Below, piece after piece: positions 1-9,889 of a stretch of DNA of 10,840 nt (positions are counted from its first letter, which is position 1; each line of letters opens with the position of its first letter). Position numbers and translations under genes: made by a program. The notes under the pieces are model-generated. The model searched no databases and had not been told where the DNA came from. It saw nothing but the letters and a program-made list of their open reading frames with translations. Source of the DNA: an uncultured Limnohabitans sp. (GTDB lineage: Bacteria; Pseudomonadota; Gammaproteobacteria; Burkholderiales; Burkholderiaceae_C); the NCBI RefSeq assembly GCF_937889215.1, contig NZ_CALBEX010000177.1:1-10840 (forward strand), in the 5' to 3' direction.

Positions 1-1786
1 GCAAGCCCAGGCGGCGTGCCATGGCTTCGGCGGCGGCTTGGTTGTCGCCCGAGATCATCACCAGCTTCAGACCCCGCTCGCGCAGTGCGGTCAAGGCCTG
101 TGCGGCACCCGCTTTGGGCTCGTCGCCAAAACCCATGAGCAGCAGGGCTTGCAAGCCGGCTTGCGTGCGCTCAGCCAGTGCCGAAAGGCTGGCGCCTTGG
201 GCCTGCAAGGCGCTGATGTCTGCTTGCCAAAGGCCCATGTCTAAGCCTTCTTCTTGCAACCAAGGCAGACTTCCCAGCAACACCAGCCGACCATCCAAGG
301 TGGCGACCACGCCCTTGCCCGGAATGGCTTTCAAGTCTTGCGCGCTGGCGCCTTCCAAACCCAGCGCTTTGGCCGCATTGACCACCGCACGGGCCAGGGG
401 GTGCTCGCTGCCGCTTTGCACGCGTGCGGCCAATTCCAACGCTTGCTGCGCGTCTTGTCCGGACGCCGACACATGGGCGATCAGCCGAGGTTGGCCCAAT
501 GTGAGCGTGCCGGTTTTGTCAAACGCAATGGTTTGCACGCGGTGCGCCAATTCCAACGCTTGTACGTCTTTGATCAAGATGCCATGTTTGGCCGCCACGC
601 CGGTGCCGGCCATGATGGCCACCGGTGTGGCCAAGCCCAAGGCGCAAGGGCAGGCAATCACCAACACCGCCACCGCATGGATGAGCGCGGTTTCAAAATT
701 GGCCCCCAACACCATCCAGGTGCCCAGCGTGAGCAGGGCGATCAGCAACACCACCGGCACAAACACTTCGGCCACTTTGTCGACCAAGCGCTGTATGGGC
801 GCTTTGCCCGCTTGCGCGTCTTCCACCAAACGGATGATGTGCGACAGCACGGTCTCATGCCCCACGGCGGTGACGCGCATGCGCACACGCCCTTCGCCGT
901 TGATGGAGCCACCGGTCAAGGCCGCGCCAGGTGCTTTGCCCACCGGCAAAGGCTCGCCTGTCAGCATGGATTCGTCGACCTGGGTTTGCCCTTCGACCAA
1001 CTCGCCGTCGAGTGGAAAGCGTTCACCAGGCCGCACCACAATTTGGTCACCCACCAGAATTTCGTCCACGGGGACATCGACTTCGCCGTCTTCGCCCAGC
1101 CAATGCGCCTTGTCTGGGCGCAAGGCGTGCAAGGCACGGATGGCCTCGGTGGTCTGGCGCTTGGCACGCGTCTCCAGCCACTTGCCCAACATGACCAAGG
1201 TGATGACCACGGCCGAGCCTTCAAAGTACAGGTGCGGTGTGGTGCCATCTGTCGCCGTGAGCCACAACCAAACCGACAAGGCCCAGCCTGCGGTGGTGCC
1301 CAAGGACACCAACAAGTCCATGTTGCCGGTGAGCGCCTTCAGAGCGTGCCAGCCAGCTTTGTAAAAGCGAGCACCCAACACAAACTGCACTGGCGTGGCC
1401 AGCGCAAATTGCAACCAAGCAGGCAGCATCCAATGCAGCCCCCACACATCGCTGAGCATGGGCAACACCAACGGTGCCGTCAACACCAGGCCCACACCCA
1501 CTGGCATGAAACCTTTCCATGTGCTGTGTTCGCTGGTGTCGGTTTGTGCTTCGGGTGTGCGGGGCTCGTAGCCGGCGTCGCGCACAGCGCGGCGCAGGCG
1601 TGCATCGGTCACATCGGGTGAGTTCACTTCGATCCGCGCCGATTCGGTGGCCAGGTTGACCGTCGCACCCAGCACACCCGGCATTTTTTGCAGCGCTCTT
1701 TCAACCCGCGCCACACACGATGCGCAGGTCATGCCGCCAATGCCGATGTCGTAAACGGTCGTTTGTTCTGTCTTGATGTGTGTCAT
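1..1786 (-). CDS. copA: Copper-translocating P-type ATPase CopA, partial (C-terminus outside window)
   Basis: An inner-membrane P1B-1 ATPase that uses ATP to export Cu(I) from the cytoplasm. 595 residues are visible from the ATG at 1784-1786. In order: one N-terminal heavy-metal-associated domain with GMTCASC at residues 18-24 (C21 and C24 bind Cu), membrane segments, the actuator-domain TGE at 276-278, the metal-transport motif CPC at 379-381 in [10 protein letters not shown], the phosphorylated aspartate D423 in DKTGTLT, the P1B-specific HP dipeptide at H462 (SEHPLA), and GDN at 580-582. The window ends before the expected GDGINDAPAL hinge and the last two membrane helices, so roughly the last 150-200 residues are missing. 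A weak ribosome site (AAGG) lies 10 nt before the ATG. The gene is divergent from a CopZ-like chaperone gene 66 bp away, which supports copper rather than zinc or cadmium as substrate. The CPC motif says the same. No break or frameshift is seen. Confidence 0.95.
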
Positions 1787-2381: not shown

Positions 2382-2870
2382 ATGAAATCGATTCGCAGCA
2401 CCTTGATCGCCTCCGCTTTGATCGCTGGCTTGGCCAGCGCAGCATTGGCCCAAAACACACCCACCGACAGCCCTCATGCTGGCCGCATGGAAAAAATGCA
2501 TGCGCAAAAAACCGAGCGCCACAACCAACATTTGACGGCTCTTAAAACCAAGCTCAACTTGCAAGCGACACAAGAGGCTTCTTGGACCCAGTTCACACAG
2601 TCCATGCAACACCCCGAGCACATGGCGCGGCCCGATCGTTCGACATTCGAAAAAATGACCACGCCCGAGCGTCTGGACCAGATGCAGGCGATGAAAACCG
2701 GGCATGACGCACAGATGCAAAAACGGACTGAAGCCACCAAAGTTTTTTATGCCAGCCTGAGTGCTGAACAAAAACAAGTTTTTGACCACGAAACGGCTCG
2801 GGTCATGAAAGGTCAAATGCACAGCATGAACCGTGGTGATGGAGAGGCGGGTCGCCATGGCAAACATTGA
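2382..2870 (+). CDS. Periplasmic Spy/CpxP-like (LTXXQ family) Met/His-rich protein
   Basis: A 162-residue secreted protein. Residues 1-23 (MKSIRS, a hydrophobic stretch, then ALA before QN) form a signal peptide with a normal cleavage site. The mature part is predicted to be mostly helical and polar. It has an LSAEQ sequence near residue 125 that fits the LTXXQ motif of the Spy/CpxP family of periplasmic chaperones and metal sensors. The mature chain of about 139 residues contains 11 methionines, 11 histidines and no cysteine, including clusters such as MQHPEHM and MKGQMHSM. That composition suits copper binding. The ATG at 2382 is chosen because AAAGGA at 2368-2373 lies 8 nt upstream and it begins the signal peptide directly; an earlier start at 2334 or 2373 would only add residues before the signal. 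It is the last gene of the copper-linked run and is followed by a hairpin. Family assignment is moderate and the copper role is inferred. Confidence 0.75.
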   Translation: MKSIRSTLIASALIAGLASAALAQNTPTDSPHAGRMEKMHAQKTERHNQHLTALKTKLNLQATQEASWTQFTQSMQHPEHMARPDRSTFEKMTTPERLDQMQAMKTGHDAQMQKRTEATKVFYASLSAEQKQVFDHETARVMKGQMHSMNRGDGEAGRHGKH

Positions 2871-3009: not shown

Positions 3010-3882
3010 ATGAACCCCATTTCACCAGACCCCTCTTCGCGTCCACCCAGCGAACAAGGCCGTGCCACGCGATTGTTCTTGCCCGCCATCTGGCCCATTG
3101 ACAACAAACAGCCTCTTTATTGGCTGTATCTGGGCCTGAGAGACATTTGCCATTCACCATGGTTGAGTTTGGCGCATGGCTTGGTCATGGCCCTCTGTGG
3201 TGGCCTCATCACTTGGCTGGCACACGACCGATTTTGGTTGCTGGCTGGAGCGGTCTCGGGGTTTTTGGTGGTAGCACCTGTGCTGGCCACCAGTCTGTAT
3301 GCCATGAGCCGGGCCATTGAAAGAGAAGAGCCCGTCAATCTTCGTTTGCTTTTCAAAACCTGGACACGGTGGCAATCGCTGCGCAATAGCGAAGAGGTGA
3401 GTTATTGGTGCTTGGTGCGCTTTGGTTTGTTGCTGGCATTGGCAGGAACCGGCTGGATCCTGACTTCTTCGGCCCTGATCACCTTGTTGGCACCTGTGCC
3501 CATTCACACACCCATGGATTTCATTCGCCATGTGGTGCTGAGCCGCGAAAGTTATTTGTTTGAGCTCTGGCTGGCCTTGGGTGGCTTGATGGCAGCACCC
3601 GTTTTTGCGTCCAGTGTGGTGTCCATGCCTTTGCTGCTGGACCGACGAATGAACACTTTGCAAGCCGTATTGACCAGTTGGAAGGTGGTGCTGACGCATC
3701 CTGTCCCCATGGCTTTGTGGGCACTGCTGATCATGAGCCTGAGCATGGCGGGCATTTTGACGGTGTTTATCGGCCTGATTGTCATTGTGCCCATGCTGGG
3801 TCATGCTTCATGGCATGCCTACAAGGCCCTGGTCAACACTGAGGGAGTTCCTGAGCGCACCCCCGCAGAAGGGTCTGTGTGA
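3010..3882 (+). CDS. DUF2189 domain integral membrane protein
   Basis: A 290-residue inner-membrane protein. A polar N-terminus of about 35 residues is followed by YWLYLGLRDICHSPWLSLAHG (residues 37-57), the family-style amphipathic entry into the first helix. Hydrophobic segments lie at about 52-71, 75-98, 134-162, 184-208 and 234-264, the longer ones possibly being helix pairs, with a polar tail after about 270. This pattern and sequence match DUF2189 proteins, which have no established function. The ATG at 3010 is the first plausible start; there is no clear ribosome site, and an FNR-like box lies about 42 bp upstream. The stop codon overlaps the start of the DUF2788 gene (TGATG), so the two are probably made together. 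A low-oxygen or respiratory role is an inference from the upstream box only. Confidence 0.8.
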   Translation: MNPISPDPSSRPPSEQGRATRLFLPAIWPIDNKQPLYWLYLGLRDICHSPWLSLAHGLVMALCGGLITWLAHDRFWLLAGAVSGFLVVAPVLATSLYAMSRAIEREEPVNLRLLFKTWTRWQSLRNSEEVSYWCLVRFGLLLALAGTGWILTSSALITLLAPVPIHTPMDFIRHVVLSRESYLFELWLALGGLMAAPVFASSVVSMPLLLDRRMNTLQAVLTSWKVVLTHPVPMALWALLIMSLSMAGILTVFIGLIVIVPMLGHASWHAYKALVNTEGVPERTPAEGSV

Positions 3883-4091
3883 TGTGGAACTTCACCGAGG
3901 AGCAATTTGCCTGGTTTGGTCTGACCATTGGCGTGTCGGCTTTCATGCTGTACATGCTGTTCATCGTCTTGCAATTGGCTTGGGAGTCGAAAGCCGGCAA
4001 GTTTGGCACTTTCATTATCTTTTTGGGCTTGGCATTCGGCATGTTGGGCTTTGTGGCGAAAGGTGTCATCCAGTGGGTGATTGACCGGTAA
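3882..4091 (+). CDS. DUF2788 small membrane protein
   Basis: A 69-residue protein that matches the DUF2788 family of short proteobacterial membrane proteins of unknown function. It has two hydrophobic helices at about residues 11-33 and 41-65, separated by the conserved-looking polar turn ESKAGKFGT (35-43). It starts within the stop codon of the DUF2189 gene (TGATG, 1-nt overlap), a sign of translational coupling. AGAAGGG at 3867-3873 can serve as ribosome site. A GTG at 3879 in the same frame would add one residue but fits the spacing less well. It is the last gene before a 286-bp non-coding segment with DnaA boxes. Confidence 0.8.
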   Translation: MWNFTEEQFAWFGLTIGVSAFMLYMLFIVLQLAWESKAGKFGTFIIFLGLAFGMLGFVAKGVIQWVIDR

Positions 4092-4110
4092 AAAACCACC
4101 GGGATAAAGC

Positions 4111-4119
4111 TGTGGATAA
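4111..4119 (-). promoter_or_regulatory. DnaA box 1 (TTATCCACA on minus strand)
   Basis: TGTGGATAA on the plus strand is the exact complement of the E. coli R-type DnaA box TTATCCACA. It forms most of the left arm of the inverted repeat. Confidence 0.65.
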
Positions 4120-4138
4120 AAATCATGGAAAACATGAC

Positions 4139-4147
4139 TTATCCACA
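4139..4147 (+). promoter_or_regulatory. DnaA box 2 (TTATCCACA)
   Basis: Exact DnaA box, in opposite orientation to box 1, with box starts 28 bp apart. It forms most of the right arm of the inverted repeat. Confidence 0.65.
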
Positions 4148-4257
4148 GCTTGGTCTGGTTTCTTGAAGTTGTTCATTTTGGCGTGACAGCAAAAAAGCAA
4201 GGTCACACACATGCTTAAAAATATCGCAAGTCCTTGTCAGCATTCAAAAAAATAGGC

Positions 4258-4266
4258 TTATCCACA
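4258..4266 (+). promoter_or_regulatory. DnaA box 3 (TTATCCACA)
   Basis: Third exact DnaA box, same orientation as box 2 and 119 bp from it. It lies 112 bp before the minC ATG, next to an AT-rich stretch. Confidence 0.65.
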
Positions 4267-4280
4267 CACCAACGCGGCCC

Positions 4281-4334
4281 TTATTACTACCACTATTTAA
4301 AGATATAAAACTATAGAGAGATAACAAAAAAACA
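4281..4334 (+). promoter_or_regulatory. AT-rich segment upstream of minC, likely promoter
   Basis: This stretch is strongly AT-rich compared with the rest of the window and has several TA-rich hexamers, the best being TATAAA at 4304-4309. TTATTA at 4281-4286 sits 17 bp upstream as a weak -35. It would start transcription of minC-minD-minE. It could also act as an easily melted DNA segment next to the DnaA boxes. Neither role is proven by sequence. Confidence 0.4.
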
Positions 4335-4377
4335 AGTGCGCTGTTAAGATTTGCGACTTTCCAACCCCAGCAGCACC

Positions 4378-5142
4378 ATGGCGATCGTTTCAGAAGACCC
4401 TTCATTACCCTGTTGCGACATCAAAAGTGCCGATTTGTCTTTGGTGGCTTTGCTTCTCAAAACCACAGACATAGACGCCGTTTCCAAGGCATTGCAGCAA
4501 CAACTGGCTCAAAGCCCTGGTTTTTTTGACCAGGACCCGGTTGTCATTGATGTCAGTGGCTTGGCGTTGGAGGCACATGAAACCATTGATCTTCATGCTT
4601 TGATGTCTGTGTTGCGTGAACATGCATTGGTGCCTTTGGCCATCAAAGGCGCTCATCAGGAGCTTTTGCAGCTCGCCAAGGGATTGGGCTTGGTGGATGC
4701 GTCCGATGCCCGTATACGTCGTTCTATGGCCGTTGTAGAGGCCAAGGTCACGCCGAGTGAACCTGTTAAACCAGCTGCCCTCGTGGAATTGCCTCTGGGT
4801 GCATTGGTCATCGACAAACCTTTGCGTTCAGGCCAACAGGTTTATGCCAAGGGCCGTGACCTCATCGTCTTGGCCATGGTCAATGCGGGCGCAGAGGTCA
4901 TTGCCGATGGCTATATTCATGTGTATGCCACTTTGCGTGGCAAAGCCATCGCCGGTGCGCGTGGCAACACAGAGGCCCAAATATTCGCCTTGGTGATGGA
5001 GCCAGAACTGATTTCCATCGCCGGGGTTTACCGAACCAGTGAAAATGCTTTGCCAGCAGATGTTTTAGGCAAAGTGGCGCAGGTTTCTCTGCAGTCTGGG
5101 CCTGAAGGGGACAAGTTGTTGATTACCCCTTTGAAGCCTTGA
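4378..5142 (+). CDS. minC: Septum site-determining protein MinC
   Basis: A 254-residue inhibitor of FtsZ assembly that blocks division near the poles when carried to the membrane by MinD. The N-terminal FtsZ-inhibiting domain covers about residues 13-115, starting CDIKSADLSLVALLLKTTD. A variable linker (116-143) follows, then the C-terminal beta-helix domain (144-250) that dimerises and binds MinD. That domain has RSGQQVYAKGRDLIVL at 150-165 and the family signature GYIHVYATLRGKAIAGARGN at 178-197. The ATG at 4378 gives the usual family length and N-terminus; a TTG at 4351 would add nine residues. Neither has a good ribosome site, so translation start may be inefficient or leader-dependent. 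It heads the minC-minD-minE operon and follows a DnaA-box cluster. Confidence 0.95.
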   Translation: MAIVSEDPSLPCCDIKSADLSLVALLLKTTDIDAVSKALQQQLAQSPGFFDQDPVVIDVSGLALEAHETIDLHALMSVLREHALVPLAIKGAHQELLQLAKGLGLVDASDARIRRSMAVVEAKVTPSEPVKPAALVELPLGALVIDKPLRSGQQVYAKGRDLIVLAMVNAGAEVIADGYIHVYATLRGKAIAGARGNTEAQIFALVMEPELISIAGVYRTSENALPADVLGKVAQVSLQSGPEGDKLLITPLKP

Positions 5143-5179: not shown

Positions 5180-5995
5180 ATGACGAAAATAGTTGTTGTG
5201 ACTTCCGGCAAAGGTGGAGTGGGCAAGACCACAACCAGCGCCAGTTTTGCCACGGGTTTGGCCCTCAGGGGTTTCAAGACCGCCGTCATTGACTTCGACG
5301 TGGGCCTTCGCAATTTGGACCTGATCATGGGCTGCGAACGCCGTGTGGTGTACGACTTGATCAATGTGATTCAGGGCGAAGCCAATTTGAACCAAGCCCT
5401 CATCAAAGACAAACAATGTGACAACTTGTTTGTTTTGGCGGCTTCACAAACCCGCGACAAAGATGCTTTGTCCATTGAAGGTGTTGAGAAGGTTTTGAAT
5501 GACTTGAGTGGCATGGGTTTCGAATACGTGGTGTGCGATTCACCTGCCGGCATTGAAACTGGCGCTTTGATGGCCATGCATTTTGCTGACGAGGCTTTGG
5601 TGGTGACCAATCCCGAGGTGTCGTCGGTGCGTGATTCGGATCGCATTTTGGGCATGCTGGGCAGCAAGACCAAACGTGCCATTGAAGGTTTGGAGCCGAT
5701 CAAAGAACACCTGTTGATCACCCGTTACAACCCCAACCGGGTGGAAGAGGGGCAAATGTTGTCTCTGCAAGACATCCAAGACATCTTGCGCATCAAGCTG
5801 TTGGGTGTGATTCCAGAAAGCGAAAACGTTTTGCAGGCTTCTAACCAAGGAACGCCTGCCATTCACATGGCCAACACCGACGTATCCGAAGCCTACAAAG
5901 ACGTGATCGACCGTTTTTTGGGTGAAGACAGACCTATGCGTTTCATTGAAGCGGAAAAAGTGGGTTTCTTCAAACGTTTGTTTGGAGGCAAGTAA
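5180..5995 (+). CDS. minD: Septum site-determining ATPase MinD
   Basis: A 271-residue ParA/MinD-type ATPase that binds the inner membrane in its ATP dimer form, recruits MinC, and oscillates from pole to pole under MinE. The deviant Walker A motif is at residues 10-18 (GKGGVGKTT), with both the signature K11 and the catalytic K16. D40 in VIDFDVGLRNLD corresponds to the MinE/MinC contact region, and the Walker B-type strand is VVCDSPAG. The C-terminal amphipathic membrane-targeting helix VGFFKRLFGGK (261-271) is intact. Length and sequence are normal for the family. It follows minC after a 37-nt AT-rich gap with only a weak ribosome site (AAGAAAG), and minE begins 3 nt after its stop codon. 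Confidence 0.97.
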   Translation: MTKIVVVTSGKGGVGKTTTSASFATGLALRGFKTAVIDFDVGLRNLDLIMGCERRVVYDLINVIQGEANLNQALIKDKQCDNLFVLAASQTRDKDALSIEGVEKVLNDLSGMGFEYVVCDSPAGIETGALMAMHFADEALVVTNPEVSSVRDSDRILGMLGSKTKRAIEGLEPIKEHLLITRYNPNRVEEGQMLSLQDIQDILRIKLLGVIPESENVLQASNQGTPAIHMANTDVSEAYKDVIDRFLGEDRPMRFIEAEKVGFFKRLFGGK

Positions 5996-5998
5996 ACC

Positions 5999-6259
5999 AT
6001 GTCCTTTCTTTCCTTCCTGTTGGGCGAAAAGAAGCAAACGGCCAGCGTGGCCAAAGAACGCCTGCAAATCATCCTGGCACATGAACGCAGCGGCCGCAAT
6101 GCCGCTGAGCCTGATTACTTGCCAGACCTTCAGCGTGAACTGGTGGCGGTGATCAGCAAGTACATCAAAATCAATGTCGAAGACATCAAGGTCAACTTGG
6201 AGCGCCAGGACAACCTGGAAGTGCTCGAAGTGAAAATTGAACTGCCCGATTCACGCTAA
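5999..6259 (+). CDS. minE: Cell division topological specificity factor MinE
   Basis: An 86-residue protein that stimulates MinD ATPase and removes MinD and MinC from mid-cell, giving the oscillation that frees the centre for division. Residues 2-9 (SFLSFLLG) form the membrane-binding N-terminus. About 18-30 ([13 protein letters not shown]) is the conserved anti-MinCD segment that binds MinD, and about 35-86 is the topological-specificity domain ([19 protein letters not shown]). The ribosome site GGAGG at 5984-5988 lies in the end of minD, 10 nt before the ATG. It is the last gene of the operon, with a terminator about 63 nt downstream, and its neighbour is convergent. Confidence 0.96.
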
Positions 6260-6321: not shown

Positions 6322-6354
6322 CCATGGCCCTGCAAGCAGGACCATGGTTTTTTT
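6322..6354 (+). terminator. Intrinsic terminator of the minCDE operon
   Basis: The hairpin CCATGG-c-CCTG / CAGG-a-CCATGG has a CAAG loop and one C-A mismatch, and is followed directly by seven T (6348-6354). The T-run overlaps the stop codon of the convergent oxidoreductase gene. On the minus strand the hairpin has no T-run after it, so it should end transcription from the min side only. Confidence 0.88.
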
Positions 6355-9300
6355 ATGGTTGGCCCAGGGAAGTCCACAAGGAACGCGCAGCGCGAATGTT
6401 GCGTTCTTTGACGTGCCCATAGCCTCTGATGTTTTCAGGGACTTGGGCCACTTTCACCGCATGCGCATGGGTTTGTTCTGACAGTTGCACCAAGCAGTTG
6501 TCGATGTGTTCCATGTATTCACGGATCAGAGCGCGTTCGGTCTGGCGCTCTTCGGTTTTGCCAAAGTAGTCCAGCTTGGTGCCGCGCAGACCTTTGAGTT
6601 TGGCAAGTATCTTGAAGCCTGTGAGCATGACAGGGCCAAACTTTTTCTTGACCAATTCACCTTGGCTGTTGCGCTTGGACCAAAGCGGTGGAGCCAAGTG
6701 GTAGTGAATCTTGAAGTCGCCTTCAAAACTGTTTTGGATGCGTTCTATGAAACCTGTTTGGGTGTGCAAACGGGCCACTTCGTATTCGTCTTTGTAGGCC
6801 ATCAGACGGTAGAGCTGACGCGCCACCGTATCGCTCAACAGCGTTTTACCCAAAGGTGCTTCGGTGGCTTGTACGCGGGCCACAATGCCTTGGTAAAGCT
6901 GTGCATACGCCTTGTCTTGGTAATCGGTCAATCGGGCCATGCGGTCGGCGACAAGGTCTTCCAAAGACTCTCGCTTTTTAAATTGGATCAATTGCACGGG
7001 CCGCATGGTTTGCATGAGTGCGTCAAGTTGGTGCGCTGCGTGGCGGCCCCATTCGAAAGCGGCCAAGTTGTTTTTGACCTGCACATCGTTGAGCTCAATC
7101 GCCCGCACCAAAGATTCGCGACGCAAGGGCACCCAGCCTTTTTGCCAGGCGTAACCGAGCAGCATGGGGTTCACATAAATCGTGTCGCCCATGAGCTGCT
7201 TGGCAAGAGCATCTGCATCAAAAGCGCCAACGCCTGACGCACCAACTTGGGTGGCGATTTCGGCCACGCATTGTTCGGCTGGGTTCTGCCAATTGCCATT
7301 TTTTACAAAAGCTGCGGTGGGGGTGCTGTTGCTGTTCAAGGCCACATGGGTGCGACCGGCGCGCATGCGCAAAGTGGTTTCTTTGGAGGCACTGACAATG
7401 GGATCGCAACCGATGATCAGGTCGGCAGCGGCCATGCTCACACGGGTGGTTCGGATTTCGTCTTGGGTGTTGGCTACCAAAATGTGGCTCCAGGTCGCCC
7501 CCCCTTTTTGGGCAAGTCCTGCCGAGTCTTGTGTGACGATGCCTTTGCCTTCCATGTGCGCTGCCATGCCGAGCAGCTGGCCAATGGTGATGACGCCTGT
7601 ACCGCCCACACCCGCCACCACCATGCCCCAAGGTTGGCCGATGACGGGCAGCTCAGGCTCGGGCAGTGCACCCAGCTTAGCTGGGTTTGGCGTGGCGCTG
7701 GTGGATGTGGCTTTCTTTTTGAAAGTACCGCCTTCTACCGTGACAAAGCTGGGGCAAAAACCTTTGAGGCAGCTGGTGTCTTTGTTGCAAGTGCTTTGGT
7801 TGATGGTGCGTTTGCGGCCCAAAGGGGTTTCAAGCGGCTCGACCGACAAGCAGTTGGATTGCACGCTGCAATCGCCGCAGCCTTCGCAGACTTCTTCGTT
7901 GATCATCACGCGCACGGCAGGGTCGACCATGGTGCCGCGTTTGCGGCGGCGGCGCTTTTCGGTGGCGCAGGTCTGGTCATAAATGATGACGGTGGTGCCT
8001 TTGATCTCCCGCATCTCGCGTTGAATGCGGTCAAGCTCGTCGCGGTGGTAGACACGCACGCCTTCGGCCAGAGCGACGCCTTCGTATTTTTCGGGCTCGT
8101 CGGTCACGACCACGGTGCGTTGAGCTCCTTCACCCTTCATGCTCATGGCGATCTGCACCACGCTGTGGCCCTCAGACCGTTCGCCGATGGCTTGGCCACC
8201 CGTCATGGCGACGGCGTCGTTGTACAAAATTTTGTAGGTGATGTTCACACCTGACGCCACACTTTGGCGCACGGCCAAGATGCCGCTGTGGAAATAGGTG
8301 CCATCTCCGATGTTGGCAAAAATGTGTTGGTCGGTGCTGAAGGGTTGCTGGCCGCTCCATGGCACCCCTTCGCCGCCCATCTGGGTAAAGCCCACGGTGC
8401 TGCGGTCCATCCAGATGCTCATGAAGTGACAGCCAATGCCGGCCATGGCGCGAGAGCCTTCAGGCACCTTGGTGGAGGTGTTGTGCGGACAGCCCGAGCA
8501 AAACCAGGGTGTGCGTTCAGCAGCTGCACCCAAGGTCAGGGTTTGCAATGACTTTTCTTTGGCGTCCAGAATGGCCAGGTGCGCGTCGATGCGGGCGGTT
8601 GTGTCGGCATCCACGCCCAGCTTTTTCAGGCGTTTGGCAATGGCCCGTGCAATCAATGCGGGTGTCAGGTCGGCGTTGGCCCGCAGCAAGGTGCGTCCTG
8701 TCGGATTGGACGTTGACCATTCGCCGCCCGAGGTGTCGCCATCGGCCTCGTCGAACTTGCCCACGATGGTGGGGCGCACATCGTCGCGCCAGTTGTAAAG
8801 CTCTTCCTTGAGTTGGTATTCGATGACTTGGCGTTTTTCTTCGACCACCAAAATCTCGCGCAGCCCGGTGGCGAACTCGCGGGTGGTTTGTGCTTCGAGG
8901 GGCCAAACCACACCCACTTTGTGGACCCGTATGCCCAAGCGTTGGCAGGTGGCGTCGTCCAGACCCAGATCAAGCAGGGCTTGGCGTGTGTCGTTGTAGG
9001 CCTTGCCACTGGCGATTAGGCCGAACCGATCGTTGGGGCCTTGGATGACGTTGTGGTTGAGCTTGTTGGCGCGGATGTAGGCCAGAGCCGCGTACCACTT
9101 GTAATCGAATAAACGCGCTTCTTGCTCCAGCGCGGTGTCTGGCCAGCGGATGTGCACACCGCCGGGCGGCATGACGAACTCGGGCAAGACAATTTGCACG
9201 CGCTCGGGGTCGATGTGGGCGGTGGCACTTGACTCAACGATCTCCTGAATCGTCTTCATGCCTGACCAGATGCCGGCAAAACGGCTCAGCGCTAAGGCGT

Positions 9301-9889
9301 GCAGGCCTTGGTCCAAGATGTCTTGCACACTCGCCGGGAAAAACACCGGCAGGCCACAGGCCTTAAAAATGTGGTCGCTCTGGTGCGCGGCGGTGGAGCT
9401 TTTGGCTACATGGTCATCGCCTGCCACCGCCAGCACGCCGCCCCAAGGTGTGGTGCCCGCCATGTTGGCGTGTTTGAAAACGTCAGAGCATCGGTCCACG
9501 CCGGGGCCTTTGCCGTACCAGATGCCGAATACGCCGTCGAACTTGTTGGTGCCCGGTGGCGCAAAGCCCAGTTGTTGCGTACCCCACAAGGCGGTGGCGG
9601 CCAACTCTTCGTTCACGCCGGGTTGGAACACGATGTGCTGGGCTTTGAGGTGGTCCTTGGCCTTCCACAGCGACTGGTCGTAACTGCCCAAGGGCGAGCC
9701 CCGGTAACCGCTGATGAAACCGGCGGTGTTTTTGCCTTGCAGGGCGTCGCGTTGGCGCTGCAGCATGGGCAGTTTGACCAAGGCCTGCACGCCGCTCATG
9801 AAGGCACGGCCCACATCGAGGCTGTATTTATCGTCCAGCGTCACGGTTTCCAGAGCCTGGCGAATCGATTCGGGCAAGGGGGCGTTCAT
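6353..9889 (-). CDS. Indolepyruvate:ferredoxin oxidoreductase, single-chain fused form
   Basis: A 1178-residue cytoplasmic enzyme of the 2-oxoacid:ferredoxin oxidoreductase superfamily. Members of this fused type convert indolepyruvate and similar aromatic 2-oxoacids plus CoA into the acyl-CoA, CO2 and reduced ferredoxin, in breakdown of aromatic amino acids. The pyrimidine-binding IorA-like part is at about 1-370 (GYRGSPLGSYD at 61-71). The thiamine-diphosphate domain at about 455-640 has CSGCPHN at 464-470, GDG at 528-530 and the matching YND at 556-558. An iron-sulfur segment has C668, C671, C674 and C680, and then C701, C707 and C712. The IorB-like gamma domain begins at GVGGTGV (760-766), followed by a family-specific C-terminal extension. 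The start ATG at 9889 has AGGA about 9 nt upstream. It is divergent from an Lrp-type regulator, its likely controller. No ferredoxin gene is adjacent. The exact substrate (indole-, phenyl- or hydroxyphenylpyruvate) cannot be told from sequence. Confidence 0.92.
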   Translation of the reverse strand: MNAPLPESIRQALETVTLDDKYSLDVGRAFMSGVQALVKLPMLQRQRDALQGKNTAGFISGYRGSPLGSYDQSLWKAKDHLKAQHIVFQPGVNEELAATALWGTQQLGFAPPGTNKFDGVFGIWYGKGPGVDRCSDVFKHANMAGTTPWGGVLAVAGDDHVAKSSTAAHQSDHIFKACGLPVFFPASVQDILDQGLHALALSRFAGIWSGMKTIQEIVESSATAHIDPERVQIVLPEFVMPPGGVHIRWPDTALEQEARLFDYKWYAALAYIRANKLNHNVIQGPNDRFGLIASGKAYNDTRQALLDLGLDDATCQRLGIRVHKVGVVWPLEAQTTREFATGLREILVVEEKRQVIEYQLKEELYNWRDDVRPTIVGKFDEADGDTSGGEWSTSNPTGRTLLRANADLTPALIARAIAKRLKKLGVDADTTARIDAHLAILDAKEKSLQTLTLGAAAERTPWFCSGCPHNTSTKVPEGSRAMAGIGCHFMSIWMDRSTVGFTQMGGEGVPWSGQQPFSTDQHIFANIGDGTYFHSGILAVRQSVASGVNITYKILYNDAVAMTGGQAIGERSEGHSVVQIAMSMKGEGAQRTVVVTDEPEKYEGVALAEGVRVYHRDELDRIQREMREIKGTTVIIYDQTCATEKRRRRKRGTMVDPAVRVMINEEVCEGCGDCSVQSNCLSVEPLETPLGRKRTINQSTCNKDTSCLKGFCPSFVTVEGGTFKKKATSTSATPNPAKLGALPEPELPVIGQPWGMVVAGVGGTGVITIGQLLGMAAHMEGKGIVTQDSAGLAQKGGATWSHILVANTQDEIRTTRVSMAAADLIIGCDPIVSASKETTLRMRAGRTHVALNSNSTPTAAFVKNGNWQNPAEQCVAEIATQVGASGVGAFDADALAKQLMGDTIYVNPMLLGYAWQKGWVPLRRESLVRAIELNDVQVKNNLAAFEWGRHAAHQLDALMQTMRPVQLIQFKKRESLEDLVADRMARLTDYQDKAYAQLYQGIVARVQATEAPLGKTLLSDTVARQLYRLMAYKDEYEVARLHTQTGFIERIQNSFEGDFKIHYHLAPPLWSKRNSQGELVKKKFGPVMLTGFKILAKLKGLRGTKLDYFGKTEERQTERALIREYMEHIDNCLVQLSEQTHAHAVKVAQVPENIRGYGHVKERNIRAARSLWTSLGQP

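Follow-up and report, generated by a model that had tools for sequence, protein, structure and literature searches.

A DnaA-box module beside minCDE as the probable chromosomal replication origin of a Limnohabitans-type bacterium

Genes and DnaA boxes around the gap upstream of minC

The window analyzed here is a 10,840-bp stretch of DNA from an uncultured Limnohabitans sp., contig C177 of the 607 contigs in its source assembly (2.72 Mb, 82% complete). It contains the minCDE genes, and the MinC protein is 79% identical over its best segment to MinC from Limnohabitans sp. 2KL-1. Upstream of minC there is a 286-bp non-coding gap, which extends from the stop of the upstream ORF (4091) to the minC ATG (4378). 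A small DUF2788 gene borders the far side of this gap, and the upstream neighbors also include a DUF2189 gene and an LTXXQ/Spy-like gene. A large ferredoxin oxidoreductase gene lies downstream of minE on the opposite strand, with a gene for an AsnC/Lrp-type regulator beyond it. An Rfam search of the window gave no match at gathering scores. The features of the locus are as follows.

2382..2870, + strand: LTXXQ/Spy-like gene (Pfam)
3882..4091, + strand: small DUF2788 gene (Pfam), on the far side of the gap from minC
4107..4151: perfect 13-bp inverted repeat AAGCTGTGGATAA/TTATCCACAGCTT, enclosing boxes 1 and 2 (repeat search)
4111..4119, - strand: DnaA box 1, TTATCCACA (exact match)
4139..4147, + strand: DnaA box 2, TTATCCACA (exact match)
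4166..4176, + strand: conserved element AAGTTGTTCAT, putative weak DnaA site (column conservation)
4208..4211, + strand: conserved CACA block, candidate weak DnaA site (column conservation, 41 loci)
4228..4238, + strand: conserved block AAGTCCTTGTC, candidate weak DnaA site (column conservation, 41 loci)
4258..4266, + strand: DnaA box 3, TTATCCACA here and TTGTCCACA in most relatives, 119 bp after box 2
4267..4280, + strand: GC-rich spacer of 14 bp (sequence and spacer length)
4281..4298, + strand: DnaA-trio run TTA-TTA-CTA-(CCA)-CTA-TTT, 3'-NAN-5' when read on the other strand
4281..4330: predicted DNA unwinding element, the least stable 50 bp of the window (nearest-neighbor stability)
4342..4350, + strand: predicted minC promoter, extended -10 TGTTAAGAT (motif and conservation)
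4378..5142, + strand: minC (Pfam MinC_N, MinC_C)
5180..5995, + strand: minD (Pfam CbiA/ParA-type ATPase; named from its place between minC and minE)
5999..6259, + strand: minE (Pfam MinE)
6353-9889, - strand: large ferredoxin oxidoreductase gene, downstream of minE

Exact matching confirmed that the gap contains three exact DnaA boxes, as reported in the initial annotation, all within 156 bp. Boxes 1 and 2 form an inverted pair with a 28-bp spacing, and there were no further copies of TTATCCACA across the 10,840-bp window when one mismatch was allowed. The initial annotation had called even one exact box in such a gap rare by chance; 15 of 5000 dinucleotide shuffles of the 286-bp gap contained at least one exact box, and none contained three. 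The whole assembly has 15 exact copies of TTATCCACA, three of them in the minC gap, and eight copies of the reversed pattern. The sole other close pair among these 15 is found at G000:C297:2239-2258, where two exact boxes are 11 bp apart.

Two features of the gap were not mentioned in the initial annotation, the 13-bp inverted repeat around boxes 1 and 2 and the trio run starting at 4281. A role for the repeat as a hairpin terminator was considered and dropped, because the DNA fold of 261 nt at this repeat barely beats shuffled sequences (z of -1.7, with 15 of 200 shuffles equally good) and is not followed by a T-run.

Unwinding element, DnaA-trios and conservation of the module

The AT-rich tract previously noticed before minC is real, as it corresponds to the least stable DNA in the window at all four sizes used for the calculation: 4293-4332, 4281-4330, 4279-4338 and 4233-4332 for 40, 50, 60 and 100 bp, respectively. 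It is separated from box 3 by the GC-rich spacer and begins with the trio run. A run of three (C/T)TA triplets as close to the box as this was seen in 16 of 5000 shuffles of 4267-4376. The gap is organized, in order, as an inverted box pair, conserved and putatively weaker sites, box 3, a GC-rich spacer, DnaA-trios and the least stable DNA. A basal unwinding system (BUS) has been shown in Bacillus subtilis and Helicobacter pylori (PMC6669920, PMC8287927) and predicted in 1755 of 2070 origins (PMC8287927). The BUS rule of PMC8287927 calls for a DnaA box with no more than two mismatches and, not further than 16 bp from it, three or more NAN trios, and the exact box 3, 14-bp spacer and TTA TTA CTA of the window agree with it.

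To define the module, we compared the best 80 of 296 loci encoding a MinC relative, scoring 27 box positions with boxes 1 and 2 at 28 bp and box 3 at 118 or 119 bp, and accepting TTGTCCACA. Loss of the boxes in close relatives that keep minC, which the initial annotation had counted against a role for DnaA, was not the pattern found: the module is present in 52 of these 80 loci, each with at most 3/27 mismatches. The remaining 28 loci have at least 10/27 mismatches, a clean break from the 0-3 class. The 52 loci belong to records titled Limnohabitans or Comamonadaceae/Burkholderiales/Burkholderiaceae, plus one Akkermansia-titled bin. The latter, titled Akkermansia muciniphila (L042, CALQKH020000009.1), has a Limnohabitans-type minC locus with the module and is probably mislabelled or mixed.

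Conservation extends beyond the boxes. In the 41 of 52 loci in which the spacing between boxes 2 and 3 is exactly 119 bp, the conserved columns between them are AAGTTGTTCAt, CACA and AAGT..tTGTc, and AGTTRTTC was found in 43 of the 52 module loci. In 11 of 30 loci from family genomes, namely those of other genera with a 40-bp plus 119-bp spacing, the 4166-4176 element is replaced by TTGTnCCC. Because this motif occurs at the same place, the 4166-4176 element is probably a weak DnaA site. The trio run contains at least three CTA/TTA triplets in 39 of the 52 module loci, two in 12 and one in a single locus. A frequent form of the spacer, seen in many relatives, is 18 bp long and so exceeds by 2 bp the 16 bp allowed in PMC8287927. 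A TACTA-type run is found within 45 nt after box 3 in 29 of 30 fetched family loci, the sole exception being L217, from a genome whose match adjoins dnaA.

The family and genus genomes were scanned with a looser pattern, TGTGGAYAA-N15-45-TTRTCCACA-N95-125-TTRTCCACA, using the reversed pattern as a control. Matches were found in 57 of 399 family genomes, representing 25 of 141 genera, and in 56 of the 90 genomes of the genus, or 38 of the 56 of good quality (the other 34 being <90% complete or failing the quality cut in another respect), and the control gave 0 in both sets. The pattern is missing in its exact form from 342 of 399 family and 34 of 90 genus genomes, and some named relatives have one-letter variants. 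Since 23 of the 32 genus modules fetched match the module of a named locus exactly, the counts from minC loci and genus genomes are not independent.

GC skew, parS and dnaA

The source genome is in 607 contigs, and the skew evidence comes from relatives alone; the cumulative skew of the window itself is lowest at ~3100, 1 kb to the left of the gap, in a stretch too short to weigh. We therefore used contiguous stretches of 200-400 kb in five module-bearing genomes, so that the minima given here are those of stretches and not of whole chromosomes. The initial annotation had named whole-genome cumulative GC skew as a check; in these stretches, the cumulative minimum is within ~1.1 kb of the module in four of the five genomes. 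The minimum is at 706,401 for a module at 707,394 in T6-20 (400 kb), at 2,120,001 for a module at 2,121,011 in G401 of the same genus (400 kb), at 4,516,501 for a module at 4,515,597-4,515,764 in G163 (200 kb), and at 140,501 for a module at 139,436-139,588 in G095 (200 kb). The fifth genome, Acidovorax sp. 210-6 (335 kb), speaks against this pattern, with its minimum at 4,097,301, away from its modules at 4,026,586 and 4,030,789.

Two other comparisons are consistent with a skew switch. In strain 15K, for which 20 stretches were sampled, the skew goes from -0.042 to +0.018 at the bin of the module. When the two sides of each locus were compared, with at least 3 kb needed on both flanks (which dropped nine of 52 module and five of 28 module-less loci), 39 of 43 module loci had the higher skew on their right flank, versus 10 of 23 minC loci without the module. 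Ramlibacter albus has no such three-box cluster in 400 kb around dnaA, minC and parS, which lie within 45 kb of each other, and the skew in this region (contig C1, 900-1300 kb) shows a maximum at 1,144 kb. These two results suggest that in this species the origin is probably elsewhere or changed.

Sites of the TTTCACGTG type, i.e. parS, are found ~9-11 kb from the module in T6-20 and ~8-10 kb in 15K. In all nine genomes compared, a parS cluster lies 7-44 kb from the nearest module, and G163 and G401 also have single outlying parS sites far from it.

The distance to dnaA is much larger, 180 kb in T6-20 and ~240 kb in 15K. The initial annotation had raised the possibility of an origin lying away from dnaA, and the position of this gene lends it support. 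Excluding the window's own genome and taking the first-listed module in each, dnaA is on the contig of the module in 38 of 56 module-bearing family genomes, at 15-611 kb in 35 of these and within 1.4 kb in three. We also inspected the 1.5 kb upstream of the DnaA domain in 17 dnaA loci, from the window's genome, 14 Limnohabitans-type relatives, Acidovorax and Ramlibacter. One exact box is present in all 17, five of which have additional boxes with one mismatch, and a CTACTA-type run is absent from these 1.5 kb in all 17. The box in the dnaA promoter would fit autoregulation.

Function of the site and relation to known origins

The conservation of the module, the trios together with the weak duplex, the GC-skew minimum, the nearby parS sites and the distant dnaA all lead to the same reading. 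We consider it very likely that 4107-4334 is the chromosomal oriC of a Limnohabitans-type bacterium, situated away from dnaA. Of the three options offered in the initial annotation, this one is strongly supported, and the other two, a DnaA-responsive minC promoter and a titration site, did not hold up. By analogy with the basal unwinding system of B. subtilis and H. pylori, DnaA would bind both strong boxes of the inverted pair as well as the weaker conserved sites and, from box 3, would be guided across the GC-rich spacer onto the DnaA-trios of one strand. Stretching of this strand by DnaA would melt the AT-rich element (4281-4334), on which the helicase could be loaded, and two forks would depart, one of them towards minCDE and parS.

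An origin at this place might have a second effect. Initiation complexes could also gate the minCDE promoter, or transcription could aid melting, which would tie division-site selection to initiation. We regard this version as possible but rather unlikely. The predicted promoter abuts the unwinding element, and its extended -10, CTG(T/G)TAA(A/G)ATT, is found in all 52 module loci, 80-85 nt from where box 3 begins, and in only one of 28 minC loci without the module. It is also present in six of seven family module loci with a MinC hit versus 0 of 23 without, and occurs in module loci with minC of two genera. Since a Sigma-70 consensus scan of 3880-4500 detected no promoter (0.9 expected by shuffling), this prediction is defined by the conserved extended -10 only. 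The near-fixed spacing is, however, weak evidence for gating because the whole gap tolerates few insertions or deletions; moreover, the module is kept in genomes with no detectable MinC gene, and most inspected family loci have other neighbors. A further proposal, which we rate as slightly less likely, is that the unwinding element and the minCDE promoter of Limnohabitans are one unit, each initiation silencing or pulsing minCDE as DnaA fills box 3 and the trios, so that division-site selection would be coupled by layout alone, and that elsewhere in the family two or three modules within kilobases would be twin origins.

It is very improbable that the boxes form a promoter under DnaA control that serves mainly to regulate minCDE. 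The boxes do lie directly before minC, at the near-constant distance from the extended -10 described above, but the module is not tied to this gene. Among 30 family loci inspected, MinC follows the module in seven, five of them in the window's genus, and the other 23 have no MinC hit within ~1.5 kb. In other genera the module is beside different genes, e.g. between a Spy-like gene and a GGDEF/EAL-domain gene, and tblastn detected a homologue of the LTXXQ/Spy-like protein on the same side of the module in several of them. Within the genus, four of 32 fetched loci (L234, L284, L295 and L302) lack minC and have the oxidoreductase gene directly after the module, and all four retain the module, the trios and the DUF2788 gene. 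A search for MinC found none in the Limnohabitans-type genomes of these four loci and one further genome whose module is similar (five of five; G343, G422, G439, G449 and G488), two of which are <90% complete and in which a strongly diverged MinC could escape the search; the control G401 was matched. The module is therefore kept where no MinC gene was found, which argues that the boxes are not there for minC. Conversely, 28 of the 80 minC loci are without the module, and a promoter has no need of trios, of the weakest duplex or of a skew minimum.

In E. coli, datA and DARS are DnaA-box clusters in gaps that are not known to have an unwinding module or to lie at a skew minimum. A datA- or DARS-like function in titration or reactivation of DnaA would account for strong boxes being clustered in a gap that contains three of the 15 exact boxes of the assembly, yet has very little chance of being correct. 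It leaves the trios, the melting element and the skew switch unexplained, and these are the features by which the module differs from datA and DARS. In addition, when fetched stretches were searched for other clusters (three boxes with at most one mismatch each, within 400 bp), those of T6-20, G401 and G095 had none, hence no better candidate for the origin; G163 has other box clusters 11 kb and 76 kb from the module. Least likely of all is that the module serves as origin for a plasmid or for a second chromosome: the contig of the window is just 10.8 kb and its replicon cannot be read directly, but in T6-20 (G280), G401, G095 and G163, assembled in one to three contigs, the module is on the contig that carries dnaA and a parS cluster.

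The oriC of B. subtilis adjoins dnaA, and the box array of E. coli oriC differs from that of the module. Unlike B. subtilis oriC, the Limnohabitans module adjoins minC and is far from dnaA, and unlike the B. subtilis array it consists of an inverted pair with a third box 119 bp on. As described in PMC6669920 and PMC8287927, boxes 6/7 of B. subtilis oriC nevertheless share with it a strong box, a short GC-rich spacer, trios of the 3'-GAT-5' type and an AT-rich element, in the same order. The E. coli origin is separate from dnaA, a property shared with the module, but E. coli scored weakly for the unwinding system, whereas this window agrees with the BUS rule (PMC8287927). Origins far from dnaA are also listed in DoriC, e.g. 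in Synechococcus lividus PCC 6715, in which a box cluster is similarly distant from dnaA but box type and lineage differ from those of the module (PMC6323995); the word Comamonadaceae is absent from the main text of that paper.

The site therefore belongs to a known kind, as descriptions exist both of origins that lie away from dnaA and of oriC regions containing a basal unwinding system. What was not seen in the literature searched, and is apparently new, is the location next to minCDE, the large distance to dnaA across the family and the repeated modules. Among the matches listed, no title or abstract start mentions an origin beside minC or a Limnohabitans origin, although DoriC may list some, and a search for 'Limnohabitans' and 'oriC' returned a single paper, on Daphnia microbiota. 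For a freshwater genus, the module gives a testable location and a minimal layout of the replication origin, and the pattern would extend this to members of 25 genera of the family. Provided that the module acts as the origin in every one of these, a reading that must take into account that skew was checked in four genera and failed in one, an annotation rule of 'next to dnaA' would put the origin 15-611 kb off in 35 of the 38 genomes that have both on one contig. The family also offers natural comparisons, between copies of this origin that do or do not have minCDE as a neighbor and between genomes with one, two or three modules.

Most genomes with any match have a single one. Two genomes of the window's genus, G424 and G427, have two modules; these are by sequence the same genomes as L064 (Limnohabitans WS1) and L035 (Comamonadaceae PBBC1), and thus no additional cases. 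L064 and L035 contain two complete, divergent modules, at 5734-5889 (+) and 55-210 (-), ~5.5 kb apart, each with its own three boxes and trios. In several other genera there are two or three modules per genome, as in G020, G158, G088, G194, G337, G395, G299, G370 and others, usually 3-9 kb apart and once 20 kb, and as in the Acidovorax genome above. G163 has a second, partly degenerate box cluster (G163:C1:4504349-4504692) that displays the same order of elements, 11 kb from the main module.
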